Positions 46,431-64,000 of a stretch of 64,000 bases of DNA are shown here, one piece after another; positions within the stretch are counted from its first letter, which is position 1, and each line of letters starts with the position of its first letter. The DNA is from Micromonospora echinospora (GTDB taxonomy: Bacteria > Actinomycetota > Actinomycetes > Mycobacteriales > Micromonosporaceae). The translations under genes were made by a program, and so were the position numbers. The notes below the pieces were generated by a model, which saw only the letters and a list, made by a program, of their open reading frames with translations, searched no databases and was not told the origin of the DNA. The stretch covers positions 930,001 through 994,000 of the forward strand of contig NZ_LT607413.1 of the NCBI RefSeq assembly GCF_900091495.1. The letters are read 5' to 3'.

Positions 46431-47180
46431 TCAGACCAGCTCGAACTCCCGGGCCAGGTACTGGAACTTCTCGACGGTGAGCACGGTCGCGAGGATCTTC
46501 TCGTCCTCCTCCGAGAGGTCGTCCGCCTCGTCGTCGAGCACCTTGGCGAGGACCTGCCGGGCGACGTCCGGGTCGATGTCGCTCAGCGGTTCCTGCTGCG
46601 CGATGTCCGGCTCGTCGGCGGTGACCGCCTCCGGGTCGTACTCCGCCCCCGTCGGGTGGGGTCCGACGGCCGGTTCGTGCCCGGTGCCGTTGCCCTGCTC
46701 CGCCCACTGCTCCTGGCCGGTCCACTGGTCGGACCCGGTCCACTGGTCGTGCTCGACCCACTGGTCCTGGCCGGTCCACTGGTCCTGCGACGACCACTGG
46801 TCCTGCTCGTCGTAGGACTGTTCGTCGGACTCCTCGTCCTGGTAGGCGGCGGTGGTCCAGGTCTGCACCACCGAGTCGACCAGGCGCGCCATGTCGGTCG
46901 CCGGCTCGCCCATCTCGTCGACGGCGAAGATCTCGACCGGCGGCAGGGAACTGGCGTACTGGTAGACGGCGTTGTAGAAGTCGGCCAGCCAGGCGTTGTT
47001 CTGGTACCAGTCCAGGTCGCCCCACTTCTCGCCGAGCAGGCTGGGCAGTTGCTCCCAGCTCGTTCCCGGTTGCTCGGCGAGGATCCGGGCGGCGCTCACC
47101 GCCGTCCAGTTCAGGTACGAGTACGCGTCCGCCAGACTCGCCGGGCCGGTGGGGTCGAAGGTCTCCGGGTAGTTGCTCAT
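46431..47180 (-). CDS. Acidic repeat protein at the end of the eCIS operon, unrecognised
   Basis: A 249-residue protein. The N-terminal third (MSNYPETFDPTGPASLADAYSYLNWTAVSAARILAEQ...) is aromatic-rich and predicted helical (about 1-130). Residues about 125-160 consist of six tandem hexapeptides of the form (D/E)QW-x-x-(Q/H/S), encoded by an exact 18-bp period. The C-terminal segment (about 195-249) is acidic and helical, ending KFQYLAREFELV. The composition is strongly acidic. It shares no motif that I recognise. Position and orientation, 13 bases after the preceding gene, make it the final gene of the eCIS operon, so it may be a chaperone, cargo or regulator of that system. The ATG at 47180 (GGGGAG, spacing 5) was preferred over the adjacent GTG. 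Confidence 0.7.
   Translation of the reverse strand: MSNYPETFDPTGPASLADAYSYLNWTAVSAARILAEQPGTSWEQLPSLLGEKWGDLDWYQNNAWLADFYNAVYQYASSLPPVEIFAVDEMGEPATDMARLVDSVVQTWTTAAYQDEESDEQSYDEQDQWSSQDQWTGQDQWVEHDQWTGSDQWTGQEQWAEQGNGTGHEPAVGPHPTGAEYDPEAVTADEPDIAQQEPLSDIDPDVARQVLAKVLDDEADDLSEEDEKILATVLTVEKFQYLAREFELV
46704..46811 (-). repeat. Six 18-bp tandem units in the acidic eCIS-linked gene
   Basis: CCACTG occurs at 46704, 46722, 46740, 46758, 46776 and 46794, an exact 18-bp period. Each unit encodes one (D/E)QW-centred hexapeptide. Confidence 0.9.
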
Positions 47181-47193
47181 CACGGCTCCCCTG

Positions 47194-48606
47194 TCAGCTC
47201 GTCACGGTGAAGTACTTGTTGCTGTCCTCGTCGAGCAGGCGCAGCACCGGGTTGCCGGACTGGTCGATGCCGAGCCGGAAGTCGCCGTGGTTGTCGTGCG
47301 ACTGGGACTTGCCCACCGACCCCGCGTGCTGGGCCCGCCAGTTGATCCGCACCTGGGCCCCGACCTGTCCGTTGACCTCCTCGATCCGGGCGCCGAAGCG
47401 CAGCGTCGACGTCTCGTGGAAGCGGTTCTTGATCGCCTTGATGTCGTACTTGGTTCCGTCCTCGCCGACCACGAGCGGGTCACCCGCGACGGTGTCCAGC
47501 ACGGTGAGCGACACGTCCCGGAAGCTGCTGTACCGCACGCCGTTCTGCTGGACCACCTGCCGGTTGCCGGCCTGGTCCGGGTCGGTGAAGTAGGAGACCA
47601 GCGTGTAGCGGAGCAGCAGCAGGACCCTGATCTTGGTGCGGACCTGGGTGGCCAGCACCCCACCGTTGCGGATGTACTCCAGCCGCACCGCGCCCTGCCG
47701 GCCGTTCGGGTCCGCGCGGGCCACCACGCCGTTGACGTTGGCGCTGTCGACGGTGAGGGTGTCCGGGCCGTTGAGCTGGTCGAACCCGATCACCCGCAGG
47801 TTGGCGTGCTCGTGGGCGGCGAGCGCATTCGCGTCCTGCCCGGCGCTGCGGACGATCTTTGTGGCGGTGAGCAGGGACACCCGGCCGGTCGGGGCGCTGG
47901 CCGCGCCGATCCGGCTGGGCCGGTCGTGCACCCGCCCGCTCAGCGGCGTGATCCGGAAGTGCTTCTCGGTCCGCCCCTCACCCGGAGCGATCTCCAGCAG
48001 GCCGTTGCTGTGCACCAGGAACGCGCCGACGTCGTTGTGGTTCAGCGCGAGCGTGGCCCCCATGACGGTCTTGGCCTGGTGCTGCACCCGGTAGTTGATC
48101 CGGAAGTGCGGCAGTCCGGCGGTGACCGGCATGGTGTCGAAGACGAGGCTGCCGACCTCGTTGAACTTGTTGAACGGGTTCCGGCCCCGGCCGGTGGCCA
48201 TCAGCGAGACGCTCAGCCCCGAGATGCCCCACATCGGGTAGTCGGCGAGCGCGTTCAGATGGCGGGTCTTCAGGTCCTGACCGGCCTTGGGCACGTAGTC
48301 GAAGGTGGTGAACCGCACCAGCAGTTCCACGCAGACCCGCTTCCTGTCCGTCACCCCGACCTTGCCCCGGCGGAGGTAACGCAGCCAGTAGACATGGTCC
48401 ACGGACTGGCTGCCCCGCACCATGACGACCTGCTTGTCCCCGAGGGGGTTCGGCGATGCCAGCATCTCCAGCGGCATCTCCTTCTCGAAGCGGGCGTCGT
48501 TGAAGCCGGTGACCTGGAACAGTCCTTCGGTGAGCCCCCGCGCCTGGCCGGTGATGAACCCGGTCAGGCCGGCGGTGGTGTTCAGGACGACAGCTGCCTC
48601 TGCCAC
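47194..48606 (-). CDS. eCIS-linked protein of unknown function, possible cargo
   Basis: A 470-residue protein with no signal peptide and no membrane span. It appears mostly beta-stranded and looks internally duplicated. The N-terminal half (about 80-190, HVYWLRYLRRGKVGVTDRKRVCVELLVRFTTFDYVPK) and the C-terminal half (about 320-460, VRTKIRVLLLLRYTLVSYFTD... and RFGARIEEVNGQVGAQVRINWRAQHAG) share the pattern of a long strand followed by RINYR/RINWR-x-QH. I do not recognise a catalytic motif. A GGAGG site lies 7 bases before the GTG at 48606. It lies between the CisA-like gene and the acidic repeat gene, in the same operon. Candidate roles are tube-loaded cargo or an accessory structural factor. 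Confidence 0.65.
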   Translation of the reverse strand: MAEAAVVLNTTAGLTGFITGQARGLTEGLFQVTGFNDARFEKEMPLEMLASPNPLGDKQVVMVRGSQSVDHVYWLRYLRRGKVGVTDRKRVCVELLVRFTTFDYVPKAGQDLKTRHLNALADYPMWGISGLSVSLMATGRGRNPFNKFNEVGSLVFDTMPVTAGLPHFRINYRVQHQAKTVMGATLALNHNDVGAFLVHSNGLLEIAPGEGRTEKHFRITPLSGRVHDRPSRIGAASAPTGRVSLLTATKIVRSAGQDANALAAHEHANLRVIGFDQLNGPDTLTVDSANVNGVVARADPNGRQGAVRLEYIRNGGVLATQVRTKIRVLLLLRYTLVSYFTDPDQAGNRQVVQQNGVRYSSFRDVSLTVLDTVAGDPLVVGEDGTKYDIKAIKNRFHETSTLRFGARIEEVNGQVGAQVRINWRAQHAGSVGKSQSHDNHGDFRLGIDQSGNPVLRLLDEDSNKYFTVTS

Positions 48607-48698: not shown

Positions 48699-50750
48699 TC
48701 ACTCCCGGGCGAAGAACTCCAGTTCGCTGACGGCCACGTCGGTGCCCTTCTCGGCCCGGTAGACGTCGGTGACCTGGATCTGCACGCTGGTCACACCCTC
48801 GGCGGCGGTCAGCGTGAGGGTCTGCGGTTCGCCGGTGTCCTGCACCGTCAACGTGTCGGAACGGTTGGTGGACCAGACCAGGTGCAGCTTCGCCGGCCGG
48901 TGCGAGGCGGTGTAGTTCTCCGCCGTGCCGGCGATGACGATGAGCCGTTCCAGGTCGACCTTCTCGCCGAAGCGCAGGGTCACCGTGGGCGGCCGTTCGG
49001 CGTCCCAGCGCACCTGCCAGTGCGTGTTGCGGTACTGGTCGACGGTGAGATCCGGGCCCTGGTCGCGAACCGACTCGCTGCCGGTCACCTCCACCGGCCG
49101 GACCGCCACGAACCGGGGGTTGAGCTTCCGGTCGACCCAGGCGCGGGCGTCTCGCACCGGCGGCACCACCACCGCGTTGACCCGCTCCCGCAGCGGCGGA
49201 TAGATCAGGTACGCGATGCCGAGGGCGAAGAGCAGCACTGCGGCGACCGCGTTCGCCCGCTGGTAGATGCTCTGGAGCACACCGCCGGCACCACCCGAGG
49301 CGCCCCCGCCCGGCGTGCCCGGACGCACGCCCGCCTCGGTGACCTTCGGGCCGCGTCGCGGCAGCAGCCGTTGCCACCAGCGACGGCGGACCACCTCGGC
49401 GGTCCGCAGCGAGTCACCGCAGCGGCTACAGAACCGACGGGTCGGCGGGTTGCCCTCGCCGCACTCGCCACAGACCAGGTCGCCCGGTTGCAGCCGGCGG
49501 GTGGACGCGCGCCGCCCGGTGGTGACCGTACGGGGTCGGACCGGCTGCGGCGTCACCTCCTCCGGCTCGGCGTCGCCCCGCCCACCGGTCCGGAGGCGGC
49601 CGGACGTCCGGCCGCTGGTCGTCCGGTCCACCGGGTCGGTGGACGCGGCGTCCGTGGCGACCAGCGCACGGCTGTGCGGCGCGGCCAGCGCCTCCCGGCG
49701 GCGGGACGGCGGGGACGACACCGGATCCGCGTCCTCCGCCGGGTCGACGACGGCGACCGCGCCGTGGCCCTTCTCCGGCGCGGCCGTCGCGCCCTCGGAC
49801 ACGCTGTCCTCGGCCGGGGCGGTCGACTCCGGGTCGACGGGTCCGGGCGGGGATGTCGTGGACCGGGCCGGTGCCACGGTGCCGAGCGGGGAACGGGGAC
49901 CGGGCGGGCGTTCCGCCACGGTGGGCAGCCGGGCGTTGGTCACGCCGGGCGGTGGCGGCGGCAACCGGCGTACCGAAGCCGCCGGAGCCGCCCCCGGTGC
50001 GCCCGGACGTGTCCCGGGCGGTCCGGACCGGACCCCCGGCGCGGCGGGTGACCCCGGCGGACCCGGGCGGGTGCCGGGCGGCGCGGTCCGGGGCGGCACG
50101 GCCTCCGTCCCGGGCGGGCCCGACCGGGGACCGGGCCGGGTTCCGGGCGGACCACCCGTTCCCGGCGGACCGGTACGGGGCAGCGGCCCGGGGCCGACAC
50201 CGGGCGGGGACGGACGGCTGGCACCGGGCGGGGACGGACGGCCGACGCCGGGCGGCGACGAGGCTCCATCGCCGGGCGGACGTCCGACACCGGGCGGGGA
50301 CGGGCGCCCGGTGCCGGGCGGACCTGCCACGCCCGGAGGCAGCGGACGCGCGGTGCCGGGCGGACCTGCCACGCCGGGCGGCGACGGACGTCCGGTGCCA
50401 GGCGGGCCGGGACGCGGGGAGGCCGGACCGCCGGTGCCGGGCGGGCCGAGCCTCGGGCCGCCCGGAGCCGACCCCAGCCCGGGTCGGGCTCCCGGCCCCC
50501 GGGCCGAGCCGTCCGAGACCCGGATCACCCCGGTGTCGACGGCGGTCCCGCCCGGGGGCGGCGCGATCACCCCGGCGATGCGCTGCAACAGGGTCGGCCG
50601 GTGCCGGACCTCCTGCTCCGCCTCCTCGACCGCCTCGACGTCGATCTTCGGCGTGGTCTTCTCGCCGGTCCACTCCAGGAAGCTCCCGCAGGAGCCGCAG
50701 AACGTGTCGGCGTCCCCGTTGTGGTTGCCGCACTCACGACAGACGATCAC
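48699..50750 (-). CDS. CisA-like zinc-ribbon membrane protein of the injection system
   Basis: A 683-residue bitopic protein. Zinc ribbon 1 (CRECGNHNGDADTFCGSCG, about 4-22) leads into a very long Pro/Gly-rich disordered part (about 60-400, with collagen-like GPP triplets). Zinc ribbon 2 (CGECGEGNPPTRRFCSRCG) is at about 427-445. A Gly-rich stretch precedes one membrane span (AVAAVLLFALGIAYLIY, about 501-517). The C-terminal domain (about 545-683) looks like an F5/8-type C (discoidin-like) beta-sandwich. This layout of cytosolic N-terminus, one span and an external domain fits the actinobacterial CisA protein, reported to link cytosolic Streptomyces injection systems to the membrane. The GTG overlaps the upstream stop (GTGA). 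Confidence 0.65.
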   Translation of the reverse strand: MIVCRECGNHNGDADTFCGSCGSFLEWTGEKTTPKIDVEAVEEAEQEVRHRPTLLQRIAGVIAPPPGGTAVDTGVIRVSDGSARGPGARPGLGSAPGGPRLGPPGTGGPASPRPGPPGTGRPSPPGVAGPPGTARPLPPGVAGPPGTGRPSPPGVGRPPGDGASSPPGVGRPSPPGASRPSPPGVGPGPLPRTGPPGTGGPPGTRPGPRSGPPGTEAVPPRTAPPGTRPGPPGSPAAPGVRSGPPGTRPGAPGAAPAASVRRLPPPPPGVTNARLPTVAERPPGPRSPLGTVAPARSTTSPPGPVDPESTAPAEDSVSEGATAAPEKGHGAVAVVDPAEDADPVSSPPSRRREALAAPHSRALVATDAASTDPVDRTTSGRTSGRLRTGGRGDAEPEEVTPQPVRPRTVTTGRRASTRRLQPGDLVCGECGEGNPPTRRFCSRCGDSLRTAEVVRRRWWQRLLPRRGPKVTEAGVRPGTPGGGASGGAGGVLQSIYQRANAVAAVLLFALGIAYLIYPPLRERVNAVVVPPVRDARAWVDRKLNPRFVAVRPVEVTGSESVRDQGPDLTVDQYRNTHWQVRWDAERPPTVTLRFGEKVDLERLIVIAGTAENYTASHRPAKLHLVWSTNRSDTLTVQDTGEPQTLTLTAAEGVTSVQIQVTDVYRAEKGTDVAVSELEFFARE
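50268..50410 (-). repeat. 42-bp tandem repeat encoding collagen-like Pro/Gly segments
   Basis: Units starting GGTGCCGGGCGGACC recur with a 42-bp period (at about 50310, 50352 and, diverged, 50394). Each encodes a 14-residue block of the type GPPGTGRPSPPGVA in the CisA-like protein. Looser Pro/Gly-rich repeats continue over about 49930-50500. Confidence 0.75.
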
Positions 50751-51283
50751 GGCCCGAGCACCTCCAGGGTCGTCGCGACATGGGCCGGCACGGCGGCGCG
50801 GATCAGCTCCGCCAGGGCGTGCCGGGACACCCCGTCGGGCTCGGGCGTCCGCACGCGGACGTGCAGCCCGGCCGGCGGCACCGCCGTGGTGGGCGGCTGC
50901 GGGCTGGTCGACCAGGAGACCCCGGCCGAGTCCACCACCTCCACCTCGCCGCCGGTGGCCAGTTCCAGCAGCGTGCGGAGCCCGGTCACGGTGCCGCGCA
51001 GCCGGTGGGTGGCCACGGCGGCGGCGACCATCGCACGCTGCCGCTCCAGCGGCCAGTTCTCGTCGAGGTGCGCGCCGACCCACTCGCCGAGCCAGAGCAG
51101 GAAGTCCGGCGGCGTCAGCCACGGGTCGAGGTACGCGTCCAGGCAGTCCAGGGTGGACACCACCGGGGCGAGCACCTCGTCGAGGCCCTCGGTCCAGCGC
51201 ACCAGCAGGTCGTCCTCCTGCAACAGGGCGGGCAGGAAACCGGCGATCGGGTACGGCATCCGCACCTCGGTCAGACCGCGCAT
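50747..51283 (-). CDS. Phage tail protein I-like baseplate component
   Basis: A 178-residue protein. The start MRGLTEVRMPYPIAGFLPALLQEDDLLVRWTEGLDEVLAPV, then LDAYLDPWLTPPDFLLWLGEWVG and QRAMVAAAVATHRLRGTVTGLRTLLELATG, match the tail protein I (P2 gpI, TIGR02242-type) family in contractile tails and eCIS. It sits at the outer edge of the baseplate wedge and connects to fibre-like parts. Its ATG overlaps the baseplate J stop (TGATG), and its own stop overlaps the CisA-like GTG, so translation is tightly coupled. The C-terminal about 60 residues form a small beta-rich extension. Confidence 0.88.
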   Translation of the reverse strand: MRGLTEVRMPYPIAGFLPALLQEDDLLVRWTEGLDEVLAPVVSTLDCLDAYLDPWLTPPDFLLWLGEWVGAHLDENWPLERQRAMVAAAVATHRLRGTVTGLRTLLELATGGEVEVVDSAGVSWSTSPQPPTTAVPPAGLHVRVRTPEPDGVSRHALAELIRAAVPAHVATTLEVLGP

Positions 51284-53223
51284 CAGTGCTCCTCCACCCG
51301 CAGTTGGTGCTCGAAGGAGAAGACGAGGCTGTCCGGCTCCAGGTCGATGCGGCCCGCCTCCGCGCCCCGCTCCCCGGTCACCGGGTTGGCGCCGAACAGC
51401 CGCAGGTCCTCCACCAGCTCCACGCCCCGCACCCGTTGCAGCACCGCGAAGAGCTCACCGGCCTGCACCGGACGGCCGAAGGGCCACCCCCGCCCGTCCG
51501 GGCCGCCGCCGGTCAGCGGGCTGAGGAAGCCGTACAGGGCGGCGAGCCCCTCCTCGCGGATCCGGTCGACCCGGACCCGGGGCCGGGCCACCACCCGGGC
51601 CACCACGGTCACCCCCCGGTACCGGGGCGGCTCGACGACCACCCGGGTGCCGATCAGCCGGGTCTCGTCCAGTCGCGCGGCCACCCGGGCGAGGCTCGCC
51701 TCGGCCGGGATCAGGTCCTCCAACCGCAGCCGGCCCCGCTCGGCGGGGGCCGCCGGCACCACCAGGATCCGGGCCACCGGTGGCCCGTCGCCGGCGCTGG
51801 GCACACAGCGCACCCGGGCCAGTTCCGGAGCGGCCTCGCGGGCCAGCACCTCGTGGTCCTCGGCGGTCACCGCCCGGTCCCGGCTGCGCAGCGTCAACGG
51901 GCCCCGGCGACGCGCCTCGTCCAGGGTCTCCCCGTCCACCCCGCCGCCGGCCGGGTGGCGGTTCTCCACCCCGGCGACGTACGGGACGCTGGTGCGCAGC
52001 GCGCGGACCGCGCCCGCGCCGACGTTGCCCCGGCTGCCACCGCCGACGGCGTAGCGGCGCAGCCGCAGCCGGGCGCCCCGGGGCGGTACGGCGCCGTGCC
52101 GGCGCAGCGTGCCGTCGCTCTGGCGGACGGCCGGGCCGAGCACCACCTCGCCGGTCACCCCATCGAGCAGGAAGTGCGGGTCGTCCGGTCCACTGGCGGC
52201 GAAGTGGTCGACCGGGGTCCAGGACTGCCAGCCGTCCTCGGAGCTGACCTCCAGCACCGGATCGCCGAGGCCGACCAGCACCGGCCGGCGGGACAGCGGG
52301 AACCGCTGGCCGGGCACCCCCTCCGAGTCGCCGATCTCCTCGTCGTCGACCAGGTCCGCGTGGACCGCCTCGGTGGTGCCGCCCACCGTGTTGGCGGCCA
52401 GCCCGAGGATCACCGGCGAGGCACGGTAGCCGGGCTGCCCCTCCTCCGGCGGCACGACCCGGGCCCGCAGCCAACCGGCGAGCGTGCCGTCGACCAGGGT
52501 GGCCTGGTGCCCCTCGGGCACGTGCAGCAGGATCGCCCCCGGCCGGTTGAGCGCGCCGGTCTCGTCGAGGCTGACCTCGCACCCGTGCCAGCCGTCCGCG
52601 CCGCGCGCCTCCCAGCGCAGTGGCGGGTGCAGCGGGTTCACCCCGACCCCGTCGACCCGGCCCTCGAACTCCAGCCGCACCGCGCAGCCGCCGACCGCCC
52701 GGTCCAGGCCGACCAGCAGTTCGTCTCCGGGCTGCGGGACGGCGGAGAACGCGACCACCGGGCCGCCCAGCTCCAGCGCGGCGGTCTGGTCGCTGATCCC
52801 GTCGGCGGTGCGCACCCGCAGGTGGGTCAGGGCGCAGGGTGGCACGGTCAGGTCGTCCAGCGTGGTGAAGACCAGCGGCTCGTCGCCGTCGGCGGCGGTG
52901 ACCGCCTGGGTGCCGGCCGGGACGACCTGGGTGGCGCGGGCCGGCGTGGAGAGCCAGAACGTCAGCGTGGTCCGGGCCGGGGTGGGCGGCACCAGGCGTA
53001 CCCCGATCAGTTCCAGGAACTTCACGTAGAGCCGGTCGGGCACCCGGTTGAGCCGGTAGATGAGCTGGTCGGTCAGGGACGCGAACGTCTCGATCAGGGT
53101 CACCCCGGGGTCGGCCGGGTGCAGGTCCGTCCACTCCGGACAGCGGTCGGCGATCAACTGCCGGGCGTCGGAGACCAGGTCGTCGTAGCCGCGGTCGTCG
53201 AGCGCGGGGGCGGGCAGCGCCAT
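51283..53223 (-). CDS. Baseplate J / gp6-like wedge protein
   Basis: A 646-residue putative baseplate assembly protein. The N-terminus (MALPAPALDDRGYDDLVSDARQLIADRCPEWTDLHPADPGVTLIETFASLTDQLIYRLNRVPD) contains the D-P-G-x-T-L-I-E-x-F-A block of gpJ/Afp11-type proteins. The C-terminal half (VTAEDHEVLAREAAPELARVRCV..., LARVAARLDETRLIGTRVVVEPPRY...) is the typical baseplate J-like fold. It forms the wedge ring that anchors the sheath. Coupled by TGATG overlaps to gp25 upstream and tail protein I downstream. Length and order fit actinobacterial eCIS loci. Confidence 0.9.
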   Translation of the reverse strand: MALPAPALDDRGYDDLVSDARQLIADRCPEWTDLHPADPGVTLIETFASLTDQLIYRLNRVPDRLYVKFLELIGVRLVPPTPARTTLTFWLSTPARATQVVPAGTQAVTAADGDEPLVFTTLDDLTVPPCALTHLRVRTADGISDQTAALELGGPVVAFSAVPQPGDELLVGLDRAVGGCAVRLEFEGRVDGVGVNPLHPPLRWEARGADGWHGCEVSLDETGALNRPGAILLHVPEGHQATLVDGTLAGWLRARVVPPEEGQPGYRASPVILGLAANTVGGTTEAVHADLVDDEEIGDSEGVPGQRFPLSRRPVLVGLGDPVLEVSSEDGWQSWTPVDHFAASGPDDPHFLLDGVTGEVVLGPAVRQSDGTLRRHGAVPPRGARLRLRRYAVGGGSRGNVGAGAVRALRTSVPYVAGVENRHPAGGGVDGETLDEARRRGPLTLRSRDRAVTAEDHEVLAREAAPELARVRCVPSAGDGPPVARILVVPAAPAERGRLRLEDLIPAEASLARVAARLDETRLIGTRVVVEPPRYRGVTVVARVVARPRVRVDRIREEGLAALYGFLSPLTGGGPDGRGWPFGRPVQAGELFAVLQRVRGVELVEDLRLFGANPVTGERGAEAGRIDLEPDSLVFSFEHQLRVEEH

Positions 53224-53651
53224 CAGCCGGACACCTCCGCGCCGCCGGGGACGTCGTCACCGGGCAGGGTCCGCAGGTCCAGGTGGAGGCTGCGCGGTTC
53301 GTCGGTGCCGCGTACCCGGTAGCGGACCTCGATGTGCAGCAGCCCGCCGCCGCCGGACGGGTCGTCGGTCACCGCGACCTCGGCTATCTCGGCCCGGGGC
53401 TCCCAGCGTTCGAGCGCGGTACGGACCTCCGCCTCGACCGCCCGCCGGGTCTGCGTGGTGGTCGGCTCGAAGACGAAGTCGCGCAGCCGGGAGCCGAACT
53501 CCGGCCGCATCGGGCGTTCCCCCGGGTAGGTCGCCAGGATCACGCACATCGCCTGCTCCAGCAGGGCGGTCCCGCTGACCGTGGCGAGCCCGCCGTGGGG
53601 TTGGACGCGCAGGGGGAAGGCACACCCGGTGCCGATGACGTCGGTCTGCAT
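53223..53651 (-). CDS. gp25-like baseplate wedge protein
   Basis: A 142-residue protein of the T4 gp25/GPW family. Key segments are GTGCAFPLRVQPHGGLATVSGTALLEQAMCVILATYPGERPMRPEFGSRLRDFVFEP. They contain the conserved T-x-PGERxMRPxFG core that templates sheath polymerisation. The C-terminal part adds the usual TRRAVEAEVRTALERWEPRAEI helix. An AGGAG site lies 4 bases before the ATG at 53651, eight bases after the VgrG-like stop. The stop overlaps the baseplate J start. Confidence 0.93.
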   Translation of the reverse strand: MQTDVIGTGCAFPLRVQPHGGLATVSGTALLEQAMCVILATYPGERPMRPEFGSRLRDFVFEPTTTQTRRAVEAEVRTALERWEPRAEIAEVAVTDDPSGGGGLLHIEVRYRVRGTDEPRSLHLDLRTLPGDDVPGGAEVSG

Positions 53652-53659
53652 GGCACTCC

Positions 53660-55588
53660 TCAGTTGAGCTGGATGGGTTTGCCCTTGATGGCGGTCGCCG
53701 CGGTGCCGCTGATGGTGATCTGCGTACCGTCGATGTCGACCGTCTTGGCCTTGAGCTTCAGGCTGGTGCCGCCGTCGAGGGTCATGCTTCCGCCGGGGCC
53801 CGCCTTGATCTCCACGGCGGTCTGGCCGGTGCACTCGATGACCAGCTTCCCGGGTTTGTCGGGGGCGCAGCGCAGGGTGACCTCGCCGGCCACCGCGTCC
53901 ATGGCGAGGGAGAGCTTGTCGCCCTTGCTGCCCAGCACCACGTTGGCCGCGGTGGGTTGGCCCTTGCCGCCGGGCGGCACCTCGTCGTGGAACACCAGCC
54001 GGTTGCCGGACGGCGAGAGCAGGCCCCGCCGGATCACCGAGCTGGTCTGGCCGACCGACTTGACGCCACTCGCGCCGGGTTTCGTCGAGGAGGTCTGCGC
54101 GCCGTCCAGGCCGTACCCGGTGTGGCGGCTGGGCAGGCTGCCCAGCACGTACGGGCGGCGGACGTCGCCGAACTCGAACGCCACCAGGACCTGGTCACCC
54201 GGTTCGGGCACGAAGAACGCCCCGCCGGCCGGACCGGCGAAGAGCTGCCCCACCGGGGCCCAGTCGGTCTCGTGGTCCGGCGTCAGCCAGGGCAGGGCGA
54301 GTGTCACCCGGCCCAGGTTCTGCGGGTCCTTGACGTTGCTGACCACCCCGCAGACCACCCCGTCGATCCGGGACGGGCCGTCCGACCGGTCGGTCGCCAG
54401 TCCGAGCAGCGAGCGGTCCTGGGTGCCCCCGACGGTGAACTCGGTGCGGTACCCCTCCTCGGTGTCGTCGAAGACGTGCCGGGCGGCGCTGAGGGTCCAC
54501 GTGCCGGCGAACGGGGCGGGCACCCCGTCCACCCGGACCGCCCGGCCGGCGACCAGCCGGGCGTCGCCCAGCGCCTCCCCCTCGGCCTCGGCGAACGAGC
54601 CCCCGACGGTGGCCGCGAGACTCGCCGCCACCTGCCGTACCGCGCCGTCGGAGCCGTTGGGGACCGGCAGGCCCCGCCCGACCAGGACATGCCCCCGGGG
54701 GCCGGGGGCCGGACCGACGTCGCCGACGGCGCTGTTGCCGGCGCGTGGGGGCGTCGGGGCGGCCCGGGGCACGAAGGGGTCGGCGGCGGCCGTCGGGGTC
54801 CGGCCGCCGCCCAGGCTCACCCCGGGGGCGGTGGTCCCGGTCCGTCCGGCCACCACGGTCGCGGCGACCGAGTCCCAGGTGCGCACCTCGACCTCCGGGG
54901 CGAGGTTGCCGGCGGTGACCCGGGGCAGGAACCGGCGCAGGTTGCCCCGGAAGGTCAACGGCAGCGGGCTGCCGGCCCCACGCGCGGTGGCGGCCCGGCG
55001 GAAGTGGAACCGGTCGCCGTCGGCGCCGACCTCGTAGCCGATCTCCCGGGCCCGGCCGGCGAGGAACTCCCAGTCGGTCTGGTCGACCTGGGAGAGGTGG
55101 GCCAGCGTGCTGCCGGTGGCGTCGATGGTGCCGACGGTCAGCTTGGCGGCGGTGGCCACCTGACGGGCGATGTCCGAGTCGGACTGGTTGAGGAAGGTCC
55201 GGGTCCGCCGGACCCGGTGCAGCCGGTGGTCGTGGGTGTAGCCGCGCACCACCACGTACGCGGCGAGGTCGACGAACCGGCCCTCCAGGGCGGTCACCTC
55301 GCCGCTGATCAGCCGCTGCTCGGCGGAGCCGTCCTGGGTCGGACCGAACACCCGCACCACCGTGCCGAGTTGGAGACCGGCCCGGGTGAGCAGGTCGCCG
55401 TCCAGGTCGACGAAGGTCAGCTCGAACATGTCCGGCAACGCCAACTGGGTGTCCACCACCACCCGGACGAGCTGCTCGGCGACCGCCGCCGGCAGGTCCC
55501 GGTCGGCGGTGCCGGTGGTGACCCGGGGGCGCAGGGTGGCCGTACCCCAGATGAGCTGGTGCCGGTCGATGCCGGCCGCCCCGCTCAC
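53660..55588 (-). CDS. VgrG-like central spike protein
   Basis: A 642-residue spike. The N-terminal gp27-like half (about 15-270) contains LPDMFELTFVDLDGDLLTRAGLQLGTVVRVFG and the phage late control D-type LAHLSQVDQTDWEFLAGRAREIGYEV. A low-complexity linker follows. The gp5-like OB-fold starts about 385-470 (IDGVVCGVVSNVKDPQNLGRVTLALPWLTPDHETDWAPV). The C-terminal beta-prism ends with MTLDGGTSLKLKAKTVDIDGTQITISG. The GTG overlaps the upstream fused tube gene (GTGA). No separate PAAR tip gene was seen in this window, so the spike may be capped by an unidentified protein. Confidence 0.9.
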   Translation of the reverse strand: MSGAAGIDRHQLIWGTATLRPRVTTGTADRDLPAAVAEQLVRVVVDTQLALPDMFELTFVDLDGDLLTRAGLQLGTVVRVFGPTQDGSAEQRLISGEVTALEGRFVDLAAYVVVRGYTHDHRLHRVRRTRTFLNQSDSDIARQVATAAKLTVGTIDATGSTLAHLSQVDQTDWEFLAGRAREIGYEVGADGDRFHFRRAATARGAGSPLPLTFRGNLRRFLPRVTAGNLAPEVEVRTWDSVAATVVAGRTGTTAPGVSLGGGRTPTAAADPFVPRAAPTPPRAGNSAVGDVGPAPGPRGHVLVGRGLPVPNGSDGAVRQVAASLAATVGGSFAEAEGEALGDARLVAGRAVRVDGVPAPFAGTWTLSAARHVFDDTEEGYRTEFTVGGTQDRSLLGLATDRSDGPSRIDGVVCGVVSNVKDPQNLGRVTLALPWLTPDHETDWAPVGQLFAGPAGGAFFVPEPGDQVLVAFEFGDVRRPYVLGSLPSRHTGYGLDGAQTSSTKPGASGVKSVGQTSSVIRRGLLSPSGNRLVFHDEVPPGGKGQPTAANVVLGSKGDKLSLAMDAVAGEVTLRCAPDKPGKLVIECTGQTAVEIKAGPGGSMTLDGGTSLKLKAKTVDIDGTQITISGTAATAIKGKPIQLN

Positions 55589-56745: not shown

Positions 56746-57231
56746 TCAGAGGGAGAAGGCGACGTCGTCGTCGAGGAACCCGGTGTGGGCCAGTTCGAGG
56801 GTCTCCACGGCCACCCCGGACCGGCTCGGGTCCAGCTCGGACACCGACCAGCCGACCGGGAAGAAGTGCTTCAGCTCCCAGCCGACGATCTTGAGGCCGA
56901 GACTGTCGACGAGCTGGATGCTGCCGCTGAGCGGCCGGTACCGCTTGGCCTGCTGGCAGAGCCACTCCTGCACCACCTGGGAGTCGAAGCAGACCGCCCG
57001 GCTGAGCCGGATCCGGCTGTAGTTCGGGGTCCCCACGTAGGTGAAGAGGTCGTTGCTGTCCCCCGCGCGGTACTCGCAGACCTGCCAGGTCACCCCGAGC
57101 CCGGAGACCCGGGACCAGGAGCCGAGGTTGTAGCGCTCGTCGTCGATGACCACCAGGTAGCGGTGGTTGACCCCGGTGACCTCGAAGAAGCCGCCCAGGA
57201 ACCGGGCTCCGGTGGAGAGACCACCCGCCAT
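56746..57231 (-). CDS. Second phage-tail-tube protein (Afp5-like)
   Basis: A 161-residue gp19-family tail-tube protein. The core is NHRYLVVIDDERYNLGSWSRVSGLGVTWQVCEYRAGDSND...YSRIRLSRAVCFDSQVVQEWLCQ, and it ends VAVETLELAHTGFLDD. These match the inner-tube fold, in which strands form the hexameric ring. In eCIS a second tube protein often initiates polymerisation at the spike. The ATG at 57231 has a GGAGG site. It lies between the DUF4157 gene and the fused tube-adaptor gene. Confidence 0.87.
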   Translation of the reverse strand: MAGGLSTGARFLGGFFEVTGVNHRYLVVIDDERYNLGSWSRVSGLGVTWQVCEYRAGDSNDLFTYVGTPNYSRIRLSRAVCFDSQVVQEWLCQQAKRYRPLSGSIQLVDSLGLKIVGWELKHFFPVGWSVSELDPSRSGVAVETLELAHTGFLDDDVAFSL

Positions 57232-57259: not shown

Positions 57260-60200
57260 TCACGGGAACCGGGTCAGTCGTCCGCTGCGTTCCCGGTCGA
57301 CCAGCAGTTCCTGGCGGAGCCGGCCGCGCAGTCGCCCGTAGAGGCGGCCGGCCAGTTCCTCCAGGTCGTCGGGGTTGTCCAGGTCCACCGCCCGGGCCGG
57401 GGACCGGTCGGGCCGCAGTCCGGTGGCGTCCCGGTCGAGCCGGGCCGCCAGTGCCTCCTCCCGGCCGGTCACGGCCCGCAGCTCGCCACGGAGCTGCTCC
57501 ACCGCGGCGCTCACCTCGGCGAGTCGGCCACTGCTCCGGTCGAACGCGGGTGGGCTGGTCGCGGCGGCCACCTCGGCGCGCAGCGCGGCCAGGGCGGCAG
57601 CGCCGTCCGGGGTCGGTTCGGGCCCCTCGCCCGGGTCCGCGTCCTCCTGCCGGGCCACCTCGGCCCGCACCAGGTCGCGCAGGTCGGCCAGGGCGTCGGC
57701 AGAACCGCCGACCGGGGCCCGTTGGAGCGGCGGTCCGCTGCCGAGCGGCCCACCCGGGTCGGCCCGCCAGGTCAGTCCGCCCCCGGCGGTGGTGCCCCAG
57801 GTGCCGACCGGCCCGGCCGCGCTGCCGAAGGCGGCGCTGCCGGCAGCGCCGCCCGGCGCGAACGCGCCCGGAGACCCGCTGGAGGATCCGGGGCCGACCA
57901 GAGGCAGCGCCGCCGTCGCACCGACGCCGGCCGGCACCGCCCCGTCGCCGAAGGCGTACTCGGCGGCCAGGGCCCGCGCCTCCAGGTCCCGTCCCGCCCC
58001 AGTCGACTCGGCCGGGGGCATGGCCCCGAGCACCCGCTGCTGCACGACGTGGGCCAGCTCGTGGGCGAGCAGGGCCCGGACCGGCGGCGCGTCGAGCGGA
58101 CCGGCCTCCGCCGGCAGCAGGACCTCGCCGCCCCGGGTCGCGGCCCGCGCCCCGGCCTGCCGTACCAGGGCGGTGGCCGCCGGACCCCGGCGCACCGGCA
58201 CGTCCGAGACGTCCACGCCGTACCGCTGACGGAAGCCGTCCACGAGGGTGGCGGGCACCGGGGTCAACGGCTCGACGCCGAGCGGCGCGACCGGGGCGGG
58301 CGGCGTCGACACCACCGGCGGCACCAGCGCCGGCAGGTCGGGCAGGACCGCCCGGTGCCGCAACGGCACCGCCGGACGCTCCGACCAACCGGTCGATAAC
58401 GCTCCGTCCGCCGGTACGTCGGACGATGTCGAATCGGTCCGGAATGGAACGGGGTACGGCGAGGTGCCGACCCCCGTCGCCGGGCAGGGGTCGGGGAAAC
58501 CGTCGGACCGCGATGGTCGTGGTACGGCGCTGCCCTGGCCGTCCGTGGCCGGTGCCGGTTCGGCAACGAAGGCCGACACCGGCCACGGGTCCGCGACCAC
58601 CGGTGTACCGGTGGCGGGCCCGGCCGGGGGTGCCGGACGCCGCGCGGGCGGGGTGGGTTCGTCGGTCGGTCCCATTCGGGACCCGGCCGGTGCCGGGAAC
58701 CCGGGGGCCGGCGGCTCGACGGCCAGGGGTGCCGGCGGGACGGCGGACCGGGGACGGGACCACGGTTCGGTGGATGCCGCCTGCGCCACGCCACCGGCTG
58801 GCGAACCAGGGAACTGCGGTGGCAGGTCAATCGGCGCGACCGGCGGTGCTGCGGATAAATCGTCGGACGGCCCCGCCGTGCCGCTGTCCGTCGTGACCAC
58901 CGGATACGCCACGTCCGGCGGTCCGGACAGGATCGTCGGACGCGGCCCATCGGGCCGGACGGGCCGGGCTGCCTCGCCTGACACGTCCGGCTGGACGGGC
59001 GGGACCGCCTCGCCTGACACGCCCGGCCGGAACGACGGCACCGCCGGACGGTTCACATCGGACCGGACGGACGGAGCCGCCGGATGTCCGGCCTCGGGCC
59101 GGACGGACGAGGTCGCCGGTTGTCCGGCGTCGGGCCGGACGGGCAGCGCGCCGGCGCCGGCCGATGCGGGGGCGGTGGCGTCGGGATGGTCGGACGACAC
59201 CGGCCGGGCCGGCGGTGGGGCGTCCGCCCGTCGGGTCAGGAACCGGGCCGGCGACAACGCCGCCGACCGGTCCCCGCCGGCCGGCCACGCGGGAGCCGCC
59301 TCGGGCACGGTCGGAACGGCACCGGACCGGGGCGTACCCGGTCGACCGGGAGCCGCCGGGAACCCGGCCGGGTCGGTGGTCGGGTGGGGCGGTGCCGGCT
59401 GCCGCCCGACGCCGACGACCTCGGCCGGGACGGCACCGCGGGGACCTCCGCCGGGGCCTCCACCGGTCAGGACGGCATCACCGGGGCGTCCGCCGGCCGG
59501 AGCAGCACCGCCGGGGCGTTCATCGGCCGGGACGGCGTCGCCGGGACGCACGCCGGGCGGCACGTCCGGCTGGGCGACGCCGGCACCACCCGCTGGCGGT
59601 CCGTCCGGGGCCGGGGCGACCGGCGCGTTCGCTGCCGCCGGGGCCGGTCGGGACGCGGCGGCGCGGGCGGACCGGGACCGGGACACCACCTCGACCGGAC
59701 GCGGCGTGGACCCGCCGGGCAGGCCCGACGGTTCGCCGGGGACGGTGCCGGCCCCGGGCACCCGGTCGATCGGGCGCGGCGGCGGGTTCTCCCGCCGAGC
59801 GGCGGCACCCGGTACGGGTCCACCCGCCGCACGGGCCGCCTCCGCCGCCCGGGTGACCTCGGCCGCGCGGTAGACGTCCTCGAAGCCGGGCGGGGGCCAG
59901 ACGTCGACGGTGGGCAGGCCGGCGGCGGCGAACTGGGCAGCCGCACGGGCCGCCTCGCCGGGGTCACCGGCCGGGGTCGCCTCTTCGGCCGGCCCGGCGG
60001 ACGGCGGGACCGCCCCGAGCGGGTTGGCGTCGCGGACGGTGTGCTCCGGCGCGCGGGGCTTACCGACGGCCTCCCCGTCGGCCACGGTCAGCGGGGTCCG
60101 GACGGAGACCGGGGCGACCACCACCGGCAGGGTGCGGGGCGCACCCGCCGCATCGGGGGCGCTGGTGACCGGCGACGCGACCCGGACGGCCGGTTGGCGG

Positions 60201-60619
60201 TCCTCGCCAGCGGGGTCGGCCGGGTGCGGGCCGGGGTGGCCGGTGACCGGGCGGGCGGCGGCAAGGCCGGTGACCTGGCCCCGGGGTGCCGTTCCGGGGT
60301 CGGGTGTGGCCGGCGCCGCCAGCAGCGGTTCGCTCGCCGCCACCCGGGGCACGGCAACGGTGACCATGGCCGGTCCCGGGGCCACCGTCAGCGGCAGGGC
60401 CGCCAGCCGGGTCCAGTCCCGACGCGCGGCTGCCGACCCGACGGTTCCGTCGAAGGGCGCGGCCCCCTCCCCCGGCCCGGCCGATCCAGGGACAGCCGAC
60501 CCGGCGGCGGGCAACCCAGCGGCGGGCGATCCGGCAGCGAACGACCCGGCAGCGGGCGATCCGACCGGCACGTCGCGGCGCGACCGGAACGGTCGGCGGA
60601 GCCGGAACGGCCAGGCCAT
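57260..60619 (-). CDS. DUF4157 (eCIS core) protein with a long disordered N-terminus
   Basis: An 1119-residue protein. Residues about 1-780 are almost entirely Pro/Ala/Gly/Asp-rich low complexity. The DUF4157 domain (about 800-895) contains FRQRYGVDVSDVPVRRGP and the metalloprotease-like motif LLAHELAHVVQQ, with HELAH at 853-857. A helical region and a conserved-looking C-terminus (LAGRLYGRLRGRLRQELLVDRERSGRL) follow. DUF4157 is a hallmark gene of extracellular contractile injection systems. HELAH fits the HExxH pattern for zinc binding, but protease activity has not been shown for this protein. A strong AGGAGG site lies 6 bases before the ATG. It lies between the DUF6760 gene and the second tube gene. 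Confidence 0.88.
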   Translation of the reverse strand: MAWPFRLRRPFRSRRDVPVGSPAAGSFAAGSPAAGLPAAGSAVPGSAGPGEGAAPFDGTVGSAAARRDWTRLAALPLTVAPGPAMVTVAVPRVAASEPLLAAPATPDPGTAPRGQVTGLAAARPVTGHPGPHPADPAGEDRQPAVRVASPVTSAPDAAGAPRTLPVVVAPVSVRTPLTVADGEAVGKPRAPEHTVRDANPLGAVPPSAGPAEEATPAGDPGEAARAAAQFAAAGLPTVDVWPPPGFEDVYRAAEVTRAAEAARAAGGPVPGAAARRENPPPRPIDRVPGAGTVPGEPSGLPGGSTPRPVEVVSRSRSARAAASRPAPAAANAPVAPAPDGPPAGGAGVAQPDVPPGVRPGDAVPADERPGGAAPAGGRPGDAVLTGGGPGGGPRGAVPAEVVGVGRQPAPPHPTTDPAGFPAAPGRPGTPRSGAVPTVPEAAPAWPAGGDRSAALSPARFLTRRADAPPPARPVSSDHPDATAPASAGAGALPVRPDAGQPATSSVRPEAGHPAAPSVRSDVNRPAVPSFRPGVSGEAVPPVQPDVSGEAARPVRPDGPRPTILSGPPDVAYPVVTTDSGTAGPSDDLSAAPPVAPIDLPPQFPGSPAGGVAQAASTEPWSRPRSAVPPAPLAVEPPAPGFPAPAGSRMGPTDEPTPPARRPAPPAGPATGTPVVADPWPVSAFVAEPAPATDGQGSAVPRPSRSDGFPDPCPATGVGTSPYPVPFRTDSTSSDVPADGALSTGWSERPAVPLRHRAVLPDLPALVPPVVSTPPAPVAPLGVEPLTPVPATLVDGFRQRYGVDVSDVPVRRGPAATALVRQAGARAATRGGEVLLPAEAGPLDAPPVRALLAHELAHVVQQRVLGAMPPAESTGAGRDLEARALAAEYAFGDGAVPAGVGATAALPLVGPGSSSGSPGAFAPGGAAGSAAFGSAAGPVGTWGTTAGGGLTWRADPGGPLGSGPPLQRAPVGGSADALADLRDLVRAEVARQEDADPGEGPEPTPDGAAALAALRAEVAAATSPPAFDRSSGRLAEVSAAVEQLRGELRAVTGREEALAARLDRDATGLRPDRSPARAVDLDNPDDLEELAGRLYGRLRGRLRQELLVDRERSGRLTRFP

Positions 60620-60634: not shown

Positions 60635-60805
60635 TCAGGTCGGGAACGGGTGTCGCGGTACGGCGGGACGGTCGAACTTGCGGATCTCGGCGAGCAACCG
60701 CACCCGGTCGGGGTGTTCGAGGTCGAGGATGCTGTCGAGGGACCAGTGGAGGTGGTGGGCGACGTACGCGACTTCCTCCCAGAGCCGATCTGTCGCGTAC
60801 GTCAG
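60635..60805 (-). CDS. DUF6760-like small eCIS protein with a CTG start
   Basis: A 56-residue protein. Read from CTG (complement of 60803-60805) it starts MTYATDRLWEEVAYVAHHLHW and continues SLDSILDLEHPDRVRLLAEI, the pattern of the small DUF6760 protein found in actinobacterial eCIS loci. No ATG, GTG or TTG in the frame precedes this region. The CTG overlaps the stop of the upstream assembly gene (CTGA), giving translational coupling like its neighbours. The tail KFDRPAVPRHPFPT ends 16 bases before the DUF4157 gene, whose ribosome-binding site lies in that gap. It is too short for ordinary ORF lists. The function is unknown, probably assembly. Confidence 0.75.
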   Translation of the reverse strand: MTYATDRLWEEVAYVAHHLHWSLDSILDLEHPDRVRLLAEIRKFDRPAVPRHPFPT

Positions 60806-61218
60806 GATCCCCCCGGCGCGGCCCCCGCCACGTCCACCGCGAACTCGCCCCCGCAGTGCGGGCAGGCGACCTCGGCCTCGGTGTGGCCCTGCTGGTTGAT
60901 CCGCCGGTACAGGTCCTGAAGGAAGGCCAGGTCGGAGGCGAAGAGCCGTTCGATGACCGTGGTGTCCACCGCCCGTACCGCGCCGATCCGGGTCACCGTC
61001 TGGGCCAGCAGCAGCACGGTGAGGAACGCCGGGTTCTGCCGTACCCGGGGATCGCCCTGGGGGTTGATCTCGTCGCGGGCGGTGGCCAGCCGCATCACGC
61101 CCTCGCGGTGCACCCCGCCCCGGTCGTCGACCAGGCCACGGGGCAGCACGAACGGGTACTCGGTGCGCAGGCCCGCCGCCGGTCCGACGACGGGCTCGGC
61201 GAGGTCAGATCCGCGCAT
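60802..61218 (-). CDS. Tail assembly protein (T4 gp26/gp51-like) with zinc motif
   Basis: A 138-residue protein. It begins MRGSDLAEPVVG and contains EYPFVLPRGLVDDRGGVHREGVMRLATARDEINPQGDPRVRQNPAFLTVLLLAQTV. Then come FASDLAFLQDLYRRINQQG and a CPHCGGEF cysteine pair near the end. These blocks match the T4 baseplate hub/assembly-chaperone family annotated in eCIS clusters. It probably helps assemble tube and baseplate. It overlaps the inner-tube gene by 14 bases (start inside the tube C-terminus) and the DUF6760 gene by 4 bases. Confidence 0.82.
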   Translation of the reverse strand: MRGSDLAEPVVGPAAGLRTEYPFVLPRGLVDDRGGVHREGVMRLATARDEINPQGDPRVRQNPAFLTVLLLAQTVTRIGAVRAVDTTVIERLFASDLAFLQDLYRRINQQGHTEAEVACPHCGGEFAVDVAGAAPGGS

Positions 61219-61687
61219 TGAAGTCGAACAGGTCGTCGCACATCAGCGTGACCGTCTGGTAGACGATGTCGGTGGAGCCGGCCTTGACCCCGCTGACCTC
61301 CACCTTCGCCGGCCAGGCGTTGGTCATGATGTACGTCAGCCGGGCGTCGCCGTTGAGGTCGTCACCGGGACCGTAGAGCTTCAGCGCGCAGTCCCGGTAC
61401 GCGTCGTACATCAGGTTGCGCACCTTCTGGTGCCAGAGCCAGAGGTCGCCGTTGAGGTCGAGTCCCCGCTTGAGGGTGACCGTCGGCGGCTTGGTCCGCC
61501 CGAAGTGCCGGGAGAAGATCGGCCCGGTGGGACCGGCGGCCATGTACTCCGCGTTCTCCACCTCGCTGCTGATGCCGACCAGCTCGGCGAAGTTGATCGC
61601 CGTCATGCCCGGCACCTCCAGCCGGAAGACGGCGGCGCTGATGATCTCGGTGTTCTGGCGGGGGTCCTGGGTACCCTGACCTGCCAT
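61205..61687 (-). CDS. Inner tube protein
   Basis: A 160-residue gp19/Hcp-like tail-tube protein. Recognisable segments are SAAVFRLEVPGMTAINFAELVGISSEVENAEYM, FGRTKPPTVTLKRGLDLNGDLWLWHQKVRN, and the C-terminal AWPAKVEVSGVKAGSTDIVYQTVTLMCDDLFDF. This is the main inner tube (Afp1-like), placed directly after the sheath gene as in other eCIS operons. An AGGAAGG site lies just before the ATG. It stacks as hexamers to form the lumen that may hold cargo. Confidence 0.92.
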   Translation of the reverse strand: MAGQGTQDPRQNTEIISAAVFRLEVPGMTAINFAELVGISSEVENAEYMAAGPTGPIFSRHFGRTKPPTVTLKRGLDLNGDLWLWHQKVRNLMYDAYRDCALKLYGPGDDLNGDARLTYIMTNAWPAKVEVSGVKAGSTDIVYQTVTLMCDDLFDFNARI

Positions 61688-63282: not shown

Positions 63283-63458
63283 CGAACCTCCTGTACGACG
63301 GTGTGTTGCGGCGAGCATGCCAACGGCGCGCGGTCGGAACCGTTGCCCGCCGGACCGCCACGGAGGCAGGCCACACTGCCCCGAAGGGCACCGGATCCGC
63401 CCCACCGGCCTGCCCGCCCGCCGAGCGCGGGCCGCCCGGCGACCGGCAGGGTGGGTGG
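63283..63458. promoter_or_regulatory. Divergent promoter region of the eCIS
   Basis: 176 bases separate the sheath gene (minus) from the DUF4255 gene (plus). It is GC-rich, with no convincing consensus. Expression of both eCIS arms must start here or just outside. An inverted motif CGGTCGGAACCGTTGCCCG lies near 63331. No gene. Confidence 0.45.
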
Positions 63459-64000
63459 GTGATCTGGGATGTCGACCTGTCGGTCCGGGCCTGGCTGGGC
63501 AGCTACCTGCCGGCGGGCGTACCCGTCGTCTTCGACCCGCCGGACCGCTGCGCGCAGCTCGACGGCGAGCGGGTCTCGGCCTTCCTGCTGGACGTCGAGG
63601 AGGACTCCAGCGGGGTCTCCGCCAGCTGGGACGACCTGCGGGACGCCAACGGGCAGGTGACCGGACGCCGCCCGCCGGGACGGCGCTACCGCTTCAGCTA
63701 CCTGCTCACCGCCTGGGGGCCGGACACCGAGCGGGAACACCGCCTCCTCGGCGACCTGCTGGTCGGCTGCGCGATGTGCACGGCGCTGCCCGCCCGTTTC
63801 CTCGCCGGTTCCCTGGCGCGGGCGAACCAGCCGGTGGTGGTGCGCAGTGCCCCCCGCCGCGAGGGGGACACCGGCTCGGCGTGGGTGGCGCAGGGCGGGG
63901 CGGCCCGGACCGGCCTGCACCTGCAACTGCTCGTCCCGTTCGTCCCGGAGGCGACGGCCGAGCTGGCCCCAGCGCCACGCGAGGTGAGCGTCAACAGCGC
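63459..64000 (+). CDS. DUF4255 / Pvc16 N-terminal-domain protein, truncated by the window edge
   Basis: The first about 180 codons are present, starting from a GTG at 63459 behind a GGGTGGGTG purine-rich run. The sequence begins MIWDVDLSVRAWLGSYLPAGVPVVFDPPD and continues to RRYRFSYLLTAWGPDTEREHRLLGDLLVGCAM and LLVPFVPEA. This is the Pvc16 N-terminal domain (formerly DUF4255), a tail-terminator-like cap protein in contractile injection systems. It is divergent from the sheath gene. The remaining eCIS genes (ATPase, tape measure, fibre) are probably downstream on this strand, beyond 64 kb. Confidence 0.85.
   Translation, partial: MIWDVDLSVRAWLGSYLPAGVPVVFDPPDRCAQLDGERVSAFLLDVEEDSSGVSASWDDLRDANGQVTGRRPPGRRYRFSYLLTAWGPDTEREHRLLGDLLVGCAMCTALPARFLAGSLARANQPVVVRSAPRREGDTGSAWVAQGGAARTGLHLQLLVPFVPEATAELAPAPREVSVNS

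Follow-up and report, generated by a model that had tools for sequence, protein, structure and literature searches.

An ATPase-free branch of type IId contractile injection systems? A Micromonospora echinospora locus that carries DUF4157 inside a giant protein

Can a contractile injection system (CIS) do without its AAA+ ATPase? This gene has been called an invariable part of extracellular CIS (eCIS) regions (PMC10020575; statements taken from this and the other papers cited here rest on parts of those papers), and a CIS locus of Micromonospora echinospora appears to lack it. The locus lies at the right-hand end of the stretch analysed here, the window, which comprises 64,000 nucleotides (positions 930,001 to 994,000 of contig NZ_LT607413.1, assembly GCF_900091495.1). 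The source genome, 7,775,486 bases in one contig, holds one match to the sheath family PF04984. From the sheath gene (61720-63282) down to position 46431 the CIS genes form one minus-strand run. The Pvc16_N/DUF4255 gene (63459-64070) diverges from the sheath on the plus strand and is cut by the window edge at 64000, the complete CIS spanning 46431-64070. Cis11 identities of 89-91% make Micromonospora sp. C31, M. wenchangensis and M. antibiotica the nearest named relatives.

Kind of system and the AAA+ ATPase

Structural proteins were searched against the PDB, and families were assigned with Pfam, PHROGs and NCBIfam. All six PDB searches matched chains of 9GTP, 9GTR and 9GTS, which are structures of the S. 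coelicolor CIS (PMC12237407). The full structural set (Cis1a, 1b, 2, 7, 8, 9, 11, 12 and 16) is present at the locus, and among solved structures the sheath and baseplate proteins are closest to the S. coelicolor system (CISSc). Cis7 was assigned from its place in the gene order and from a match to CIS_tube at 27.2 bits (cut-off 27); the gp19 domain of this Cis7-like protein (55585..56712) matches the S. coelicolor CIS in the PDB with an E-value of 1.7e-12. A first-pass annotation, made from the window alone, had taken the joint occurrence of sheath, three tube-type proteins, assembly protein, DUF4157, spike, gp25, baseplate J, tail protein I and DUF4255 as eCIS-like and of the actinobacterial type, and had proposed that a sheath grouping with phage tails would tell against it. 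All of these families were matched. Moreover, sheath and Cis11 are of the Streptomyces CIS type, and their similarity to proteins in 50,697 phage records is weak. Cis11 gave two phage matches, the better one with 22% coverage at 27% identity, whilst the highest sheath identity among 10 listed of 2526 matches was 41.5% over half the protein. The phages with this sheath value, among the 10 rows listed, are the Streptomyces phages LuckySocke and Alone3 (OR725497.1 and OR725492.1; hits H9 and H10). Taken together, these data support the assignment of the locus to the type IId CIS of the actinobacterial (Streptomyces/CISSc) kind. In itself, the presence of a CisA-bearing IId CIS in a filamentous actinomycete is nothing new.

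The ATPase is a different matter. Of the features by which type IId is defined, the locus has the Pvc16_N terminator; no CIS-type AAA+ ATPase was found in the locus or the genome, although the first-pass annotation had expected one on extending the contig to the right. We tabulated 98 loci with hidden Markov models (HMMs) built from these loci, and scored the ATPase only where the upstream side was covered (with 7.5 kb or more of sequence ahead of the sheath in this table). A CIS-type AAA+ gene was found in none of six loci with a DUF4157-bearing giant protein, as in the window, against 25 of 26 loci with a plain giant. Nine further Micromonospora loci were considered: the gene was absent from the one locus of the window's type, hereafter type B (G464), and present in 7/7 others, the ninth (G487) lying on a contig too short for scoring. 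The in-locus totals are therefore 0/7 for type B and 32/33 for the others. The sole exception among the others, G049 (type A), has its AAA+ gene about 50 kb from the sheath. In three more distant, giant-less loci (G058, G030 and G310) AAA+ genes lie about 22-30 kb off on the same contigs.

The search was also carried out on whole genomes. Four genomes hold only a CIS of the window's type by sheath or Cis11 search (G000, G443, G076 and G014), and in none of the four was a CIS-type AAA+ found. Their best matches reached 38-60 bits, the level of secondary AAA+ matches in the controls, whereas all five control genomes gave a match of 435-1064 bits (one control being the query's own source). G015 and G464 each contain a 44% AAA+ match elsewhere in the genome, the one in G015 about 4 kb away from a distinct second sheath. 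In G132, a stronger match belongs to a second, type A locus of the same genome; this genome holds both IId branches, with and without AAA+, on different contigs.

Type B comprises 12 loci from at least five genera: Micromonospora, Labedaea, Kutzneria, Actinosynnema sp. ALI-1.44, Streptomyces bambusae and three further genomes (L146 and G443 are one record, counted once, and L147 and G464 C14 are one contig). In a sheath tree of 67 rows, from which 27 named loci were omitted as redundant along with short or absent sheath matches, the 12 loci form one clade with a bootstrap of 98 and a Shimodaira-Hasegawa approximate likelihood ratio (SH-aLRT) of 94. A quick Cis11 tree of 93 of the 98 loci, short or absent Cis11 matches being omitted, recovers the same clade as 13 rows, including one duplicate record (SH-aLRT 100). 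The Cis11 tree was run with 11 rows labelled type B, and the label needed three changes, since L150 and L152 grouped within the clade; these two were added to type B afterwards, from their position in this tree and their gene order. Both trees are rooted at the midpoint only. The three genomes tested from the group around G030 have the ATPase; therefore a loss is the simpler reading, and the direction of change was probably loss of the ATPase. Outside type B, G033:C42 (L048 and L121) shows broken Cis11, AAA+ and CisA frames; this type A system is either in decay or poorly sequenced.

On sequence grounds, we regard type B as a new, ATPase-free branch of IId that lacks one published defining feature, the AAA+ ATPase, and would work like a IId CIS. 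We found no mention of such a branch in the literature covered (mostly open-access papers, without preprints or supplements). One metagenome survey dropped clusters that had fibre and tape measure genes and no ATPase as phage or bacteriocin (PMC12210884). The closest comparison comes from within the genus. Seven other Micromonospora IId CIS (G457, G468, G491, G427, G472, G431 and G483) resemble the window locus in Cis11 (55-58% identity), CisA, and Sco4256-like, LuxR and BTAD genes; unlike it, all seven have the AAA+ gene and a separate DUF4157 gene. An ATPase-free branch beside ATPase-keeping relatives of the same genus offers a direct comparison for the roles of the ATPase and of DUF4157.

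The giant protein, the extra gp19 domain and the CisA homologue

In the window, DUF4157 (eCIS_core, 1.6e-16) occupies residues 787-862 of a giant Pro/Ala/Gly-rich protein of 1119 aa, with the motif HELAH, encoded on the minus strand at 57260..60619. The gene stands between that of a tail assembly chaperone-like protein with a C-terminal CxxC (60802..61218, minus strand; phrog_508, 8.6e-06) and the tube initiators. Of 12 homologues of the chaperone, 11 match phrog_508. DUF4157 lies inside the giant in 11/12 type B loci and in 0/69 others (counting giants whose open frame has 350 codons or more), and each of the 11 fused giants has an intact HExxH. No separate DUF4157 gene was seen in the 12 type B loci fetched, seven of which have the upstream side covered. 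Searches of Pfam, PHROGs and NCBIfam with the giant returned no domain besides DUF4157. Its C-terminal helix is conserved and common to other IId giants, being present in 11/12 type B loci (L152 by eye only), whilst the N-terminal start resembles that of relatives by eye only, a strict motif matching 9/69 rows and 6/12 rows. We considered whether the fused giant could be a gene-calling artefact and rejected this, because it is one open frame, and because the C-terminal helix and DUF4157 are each shared by 11/12 type B giants. A further mark of the branch is a second gp19 domain between giant and spike, present in 12/12 type B loci and 0/76 others, which have one each.

In phages, the tape measure protein is typically encoded by a large gene that comes straight after that of the tail assembly chaperone. 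The giant directly follows the chaperone and thus holds this position. The first-pass annotation had suggested looking for a tape measure further to the right; the position is instead filled within the window by the DUF4157 giant, and the PHROGs family search lends this identity no match. A bolder proposal is that the giant is the long-missing tape measure or scaffold of IId particles, and that fusion to DUF4157 made it scaffold and cargo carrier at once, rendering the AAA+ loader dispensable and the machine self-loading. We consider this unlikely as a whole and offer it as speculation.

DUF4157 has been tied to large or cargo proteins before. Tme of S. davawensis (PMC11126660) is, like the window giant, the largest open reading frame (ORF) just upstream of baseplate-related genes, contains DUF4157 and is mostly disordered. 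Tme has an N-terminal DUF4157, membrane helices and a C-terminal nuclease, and belongs to a CIS clade distant from CISSc (PMC11126660). In the window giant, by contrast, DUF4157 lies at 787-862 of 1119 residues and no other domain was matched, so that neither an N-terminal DUF4157 nor a C-terminal effector domain of the Tme kind was found. Sle1/Sle2 effector pairs (PMC13277306) likewise tie DUF4157 to cargo in actinobacterial CIS, including that of Micromonospora eburnea; type B differs in having no separate DUF4157 gene (0/12 fetched).

The protein encoded at 48699..50750 (minus strand, 683 aa) had been likened to CisA, and this is borne out. It consists of a zinc ribbon, a Pro-rich linker, a second zinc ribbon, a transmembrane (TM) helix and a C-terminal domain, a layout that recurs at the corresponding place in genomes taken as Streptomyces (a label given to coded genomes by 81-90% Cis11 identity to S. 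coelicolor or a shared genus label). The alignment to the protein of one such genome, G254, has an E-value of 1e-14 with 26% identity over ribbon 2, TM helix and C-terminal domain. Moreover, all eight zinc-ribbon cysteines are invariant in 15/15 aligned CisA-type proteins (the window protein plus 14 from named CIS loci, three of them named Streptomyces). The features of CisA, namely an N-terminal arm, one TM helix and a conserved C-terminal domain, are all there, disorder of the arm being suggested by its Pro-rich composition. The C-terminal domain scores 60.5 bits with NCBIfam NADase_discoid (cut-off 38), and across the 15 proteins Pfam assigns NADase_transloc to 11 and F5_F8_type_C to five. 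A PDB sequence search gave no match; in an AlphaFold 2 (AF2) model with a mean predicted local distance difference test score (pLDDT) of 80.7, the closest folds are APC10/DOC (E 6.7e-09) and CBM32 (1.8e-08). By sequence and predicted fold, then, the domain is of the F5/8C (discoidin) kind. In the window, the gene adjoins Cis12 directly downstream; it lies between Cis11 and Cis12 in 3/11 type B loci. The homologue is present in 11/12 type B loci, the twelfth record (L147) stopping short of its position.

In S. coelicolor, CisA has been demonstrated to be required for contraction and to have its N terminus in the cytoplasm (PMC12237407). The same paper likens its domain to solute-binding domains, and the word zinc was not found in its main text. 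A Cys-rich, possibly Zn-binding stretch ahead of the membrane helix was described by Vladimirov et al. (PMC10020575), and a sugar-binding domain by Casu et al. 2023 (PMC10066040). An F5/8C fold and two invariant zinc ribbons are concrete, testable features of CisA.

A proposed mechanism and its rivals

In S. coelicolor, others have found that the particles are cytosolic, that CisA is needed for contraction and that the effectors are needed for stress-induced death. For the window locus the reading we favour, and consider probable, is a cytoplasmic, self-acting IId CIS that has lost the ATPase and the separate DUF4157 gene and carries DUF4157 in the giant. Particles would assemble in the cytosol with the giant built into the lumen, bringing the DUF4157 function in cis, and the tube-to-spike junction would have gained one more gp19 domain. 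The CisA-family membrane protein would then capture particles at the membrane via its cytoplasmic, zinc-ribbon-bearing arm and, under stress, let them fire and deliver a Sco4256-like membrane effector. By analogy with S. coelicolor, firing would be triggered by CisA inside the cell, and the action would be cytoplasmic and non-released. The lumenal place of the giant is presumed. If it carries DUF4157 into the lumen, no ATPase-driven loading step would be needed. This proposal of loading in cis can be tested, because particles of the Photorhabdus virulence cassette (PVC) made without Pvc15 assemble but lose their payload (PMC11495950).

It may be that the ATPase step is still needed and that a different cellular ATPase performs it, for example a general AAA+ protein or the neighbouring STAND-type regulator, only the dedicated gene having been lost. 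Generic AAA+ matches do occur in all four type-B-only genomes, and displacement of the CIS AAA+ can happen, since G049 has its gene some 50 kb off. However, the best generic matches extend over about 180-200 aa at 31-34% identity and reach at most 60 bits, no better than the secondary matches in controls, and comparison of eight type B loci by eye revealed no additional family common to them outside the known CIS genes. We therefore think this rather unlikely. That the system is simply decaying, with the ATPase gone and the rest on its way out, would account for the absence of a gene called invariable in print; yet the architecture is common to a clade of 12 loci in at least five genera, the structural genes are there in 8/8 type B loci compared, the core proteins are 80-95% identical to those of a sister species, and every one of the 11 fused giants retains its HExxH motif. 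Decay is accordingly very improbable.

A further rival is a released, extracellular CIS whose receptor-binding fibre would be the penultimate protein of the operon (47194..48606, minus strand, 470 aa), which consists of two diverged copies of one beta-rich domain (halves aligned by hhalign with E 7.7e-07, probability 91.7). The gene lies downstream of the baseplate genes, its product is predicted to be beta-rich, and it occurs as tandem divergent paralogues like those of variable binding proteins, with three copies in G015, G464 (M. wenchangensis) and M. antibiotica. However, no Pfam, PHROGs or NCBIfam family and no PDB sequence matched it, the AF2 model (pLDDT 68.5, moderate) has no PDB fold at E <= 0.001 (best E 0.04, probability 0.06), and the family was not found in viral contigs. 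Its distribution is also narrow. The gene is absent from 6/6 type B loci outside Micromonospora that have 5-23 kb beyond CisA, the seventh such locus (G014) ending 0.5 kb past CisA. HMMs for this gene and its 250-aa neighbour hit 6/98 records, all Micromonospora type B and two of them the same record, and 0/9 further loci. In a draw of relatives, 4/151 carried the 470-aa gene, and in another draw on the same terms these four were the ones with a Cis11 identity of at least 90%. Given also the CisA homologue in every type B record that reaches its position, an extracellular system is improbable, and the 470-aa protein is possibly cargo, a binder or a decoy. The first-pass annotation had seen no fibre gene in the window, and this still stands: none was recognised there, and a scan of 13 ORFs further right turned up no family of fibre, capsid or terminase proteins (dedicated models for capsid and terminase were not run). 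The sheath, tube and baseplate families also occur in myophages, and a prophage tail or tailocin remnant was considered for this reason. It is barely credible, since the proteins match those of CISSc over their full length and stand with Pvc16, DUF4157, CisA and Sco4256-like genes; we rejected a prophage origin on the weakness of the phage matches to Cis11 and sheath.

Several points weigh against the cytoplasmic, self-acting system that we favour. Deletion of the S. coelicolor ATPase gene (sco4259) gives the phenotype of CIS-deficient mutants (PMC10020575), and a working ATPase-free system therefore needs explaining; according to work by others, that ATPase is needed for the cell-death phenotype and dispensable for particle formation. 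The upstream side is covered in only 7/12 type B loci, L148-L152 falling outside. The intracellular action is argued here from homology. The giant of L150 is short and has no DUF4157. As to the giant as a tape measure, it has no PHROG match, its highest 19-residue hydropathy is borderline and not a clear membrane span (1.71 in the window; range 0.92-1.81, n=12), and the length of its open frame ranges between 1000 and 1282 codons in five Micromonospora, which does not suggest a strict ruler. The sister of type B differs between trees, being type A loci in the Cis11 tree and the G030 + G058 group in the sheath tree (80/85). Lastly, the 470-aa protein occupies the usual fibre position.

Gene content and neighbouring genes

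The remaining structural genes were placed as follows, all on the minus strand unless stated. After the sheath gene, Cis2 (Pfam PF04984, 1.7e-22; PDB 8bky/9gtp, 2.4e-195), come the inner tube Cis1a at 61205..61687 (gp19; Pfam 6.5e-15), the chaperone, the giant and the tube initiator Cis1b at 56746..57231 (gp19; Pfam 2e-18). The Cis7-like gene carries the extra gp19 tube-initiator domain fused to its CIS_tube domain (Pfam gp19 1.6e-24, CIS_tube 3.8e-06). It is followed by the VgrG-like spike Cis8 at 53660..55588 (Pfam 4.7e-23; PDB 9gtr_q, E 4.7e-55), the gp25-like Cis9 at 53223..53651 (Pfam 4.4e-22), and two baseplate wedge proteins, Cis11 at 51283..53223 (baseplate J; PDB 9gtp_1K, E 4.7e-216 over the full length) and Cis12 at 50747..51283 (Tail_P2_I; Pfam 1e-14; PDB 9gtp_E, E 2.1e-43). 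Beyond the CisA homologue and the 470-aa gene the operon closes with a 250-aa acidic protein with Q/W-rich repeats (46431..47183), for which no Pfam (E <= 0.01), PHROG or NCBIfam match was obtained. The divergent gene on the plus strand encodes Cis16, the cap or terminator (Pvc16_N, DUF4255; Pfam 1.5e-15; PDB 9gts_0A, 3e-17).

Set beside the CIS of S. coelicolor (CISSc) and S. lividans (SLP), the locus has counterparts of the nine reconstructed CISSc proteins by PDB match, Pfam or order. It likewise has CisA next to the baseplate wedge genes, a Sco4256-like effector, no recognised fibre, and the chaperone and giant in the order of Streptomyces-type loci. For CISSc neither a fibre nor a tape measure gene was found, as reported in the cited part of PMC12237407. 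The differences are that CISSc has the AAA+ gene sco4259 (PMC10020575), whereas the window locus has no CIS-type AAA+, that DUF4157 lies inside the giant, and that there is an extra gp19 domain. Furthermore, Pvc16 is divergent beside the sheath with a PAAR gene (66222-66614, right of the window) near it, whereas in CISSc the corresponding place is between spike and gp25.

Also right of the window, at 64161-65519, lies the gene for a candidate effector, which has an Ig-like N-terminal region and spans the membrane once. Over 253 aa, its product shares 40% identity with a protein encoded next to the G254 CIS, the similarity ending after the membrane span. The comparison protein is probably a Sco4256 homologue, judging from its layout and position, and the window protein shows the conserved Ig/chaperone-like N-terminal part and single TM helix of that type; a Sco4256-like effector is what these features suggest. 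Sco4256 has been reported to be an effector associated with the CIS and to combine a chaperone-like N-terminal part with a TM helix (PMC10020575 and PMC10066040), and for Sco4256-4258 loading in the tube and toxicity have been shown (PMC10066040).

Two regulators flank the locus. On the plus strand at 42694..46296, convergent with the 3′ end of the CIS operon, is an AfsR/SARP-type regulator with NB-ARC and TPR by Pfam (NCBIfam AfsR 497.7 bits, cut-off 1430). A similar BTAD gene lies beyond the CIS 3′ end in 8/8 other Micromonospora CIS loci and near several others, counts for which there is no background rate, and the AfsR/SARP-type protein is possibly a CIS-associated regulator. A LuxR-type regulator is encoded at 65516-66187, right of the window. 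LuxR-type genes were seen within about 5 kb of Pvc16 in 24/31 CIS loci of both branches, again with no background rate.

A few kb from the CIS operon, at 37487-38407, is a gene for a SMODS-associating 4TM effector domain protein (S_4TM, E 1.7e-79), of a kind that belongs to nucleotide-signalling defence systems. The 780-aa protein encoded at 38656-40998 gives a sub-threshold TCAD9 match (E 0.0024; 17.5 bits, cut-off 40). Lastly, a 718-aa ORF in the rightward extension (L003 15224-17380, corresponding to 75224-77380 in window coordinates) combines sigma-70 region 2 with a right-handed beta helix, an odd pairing.

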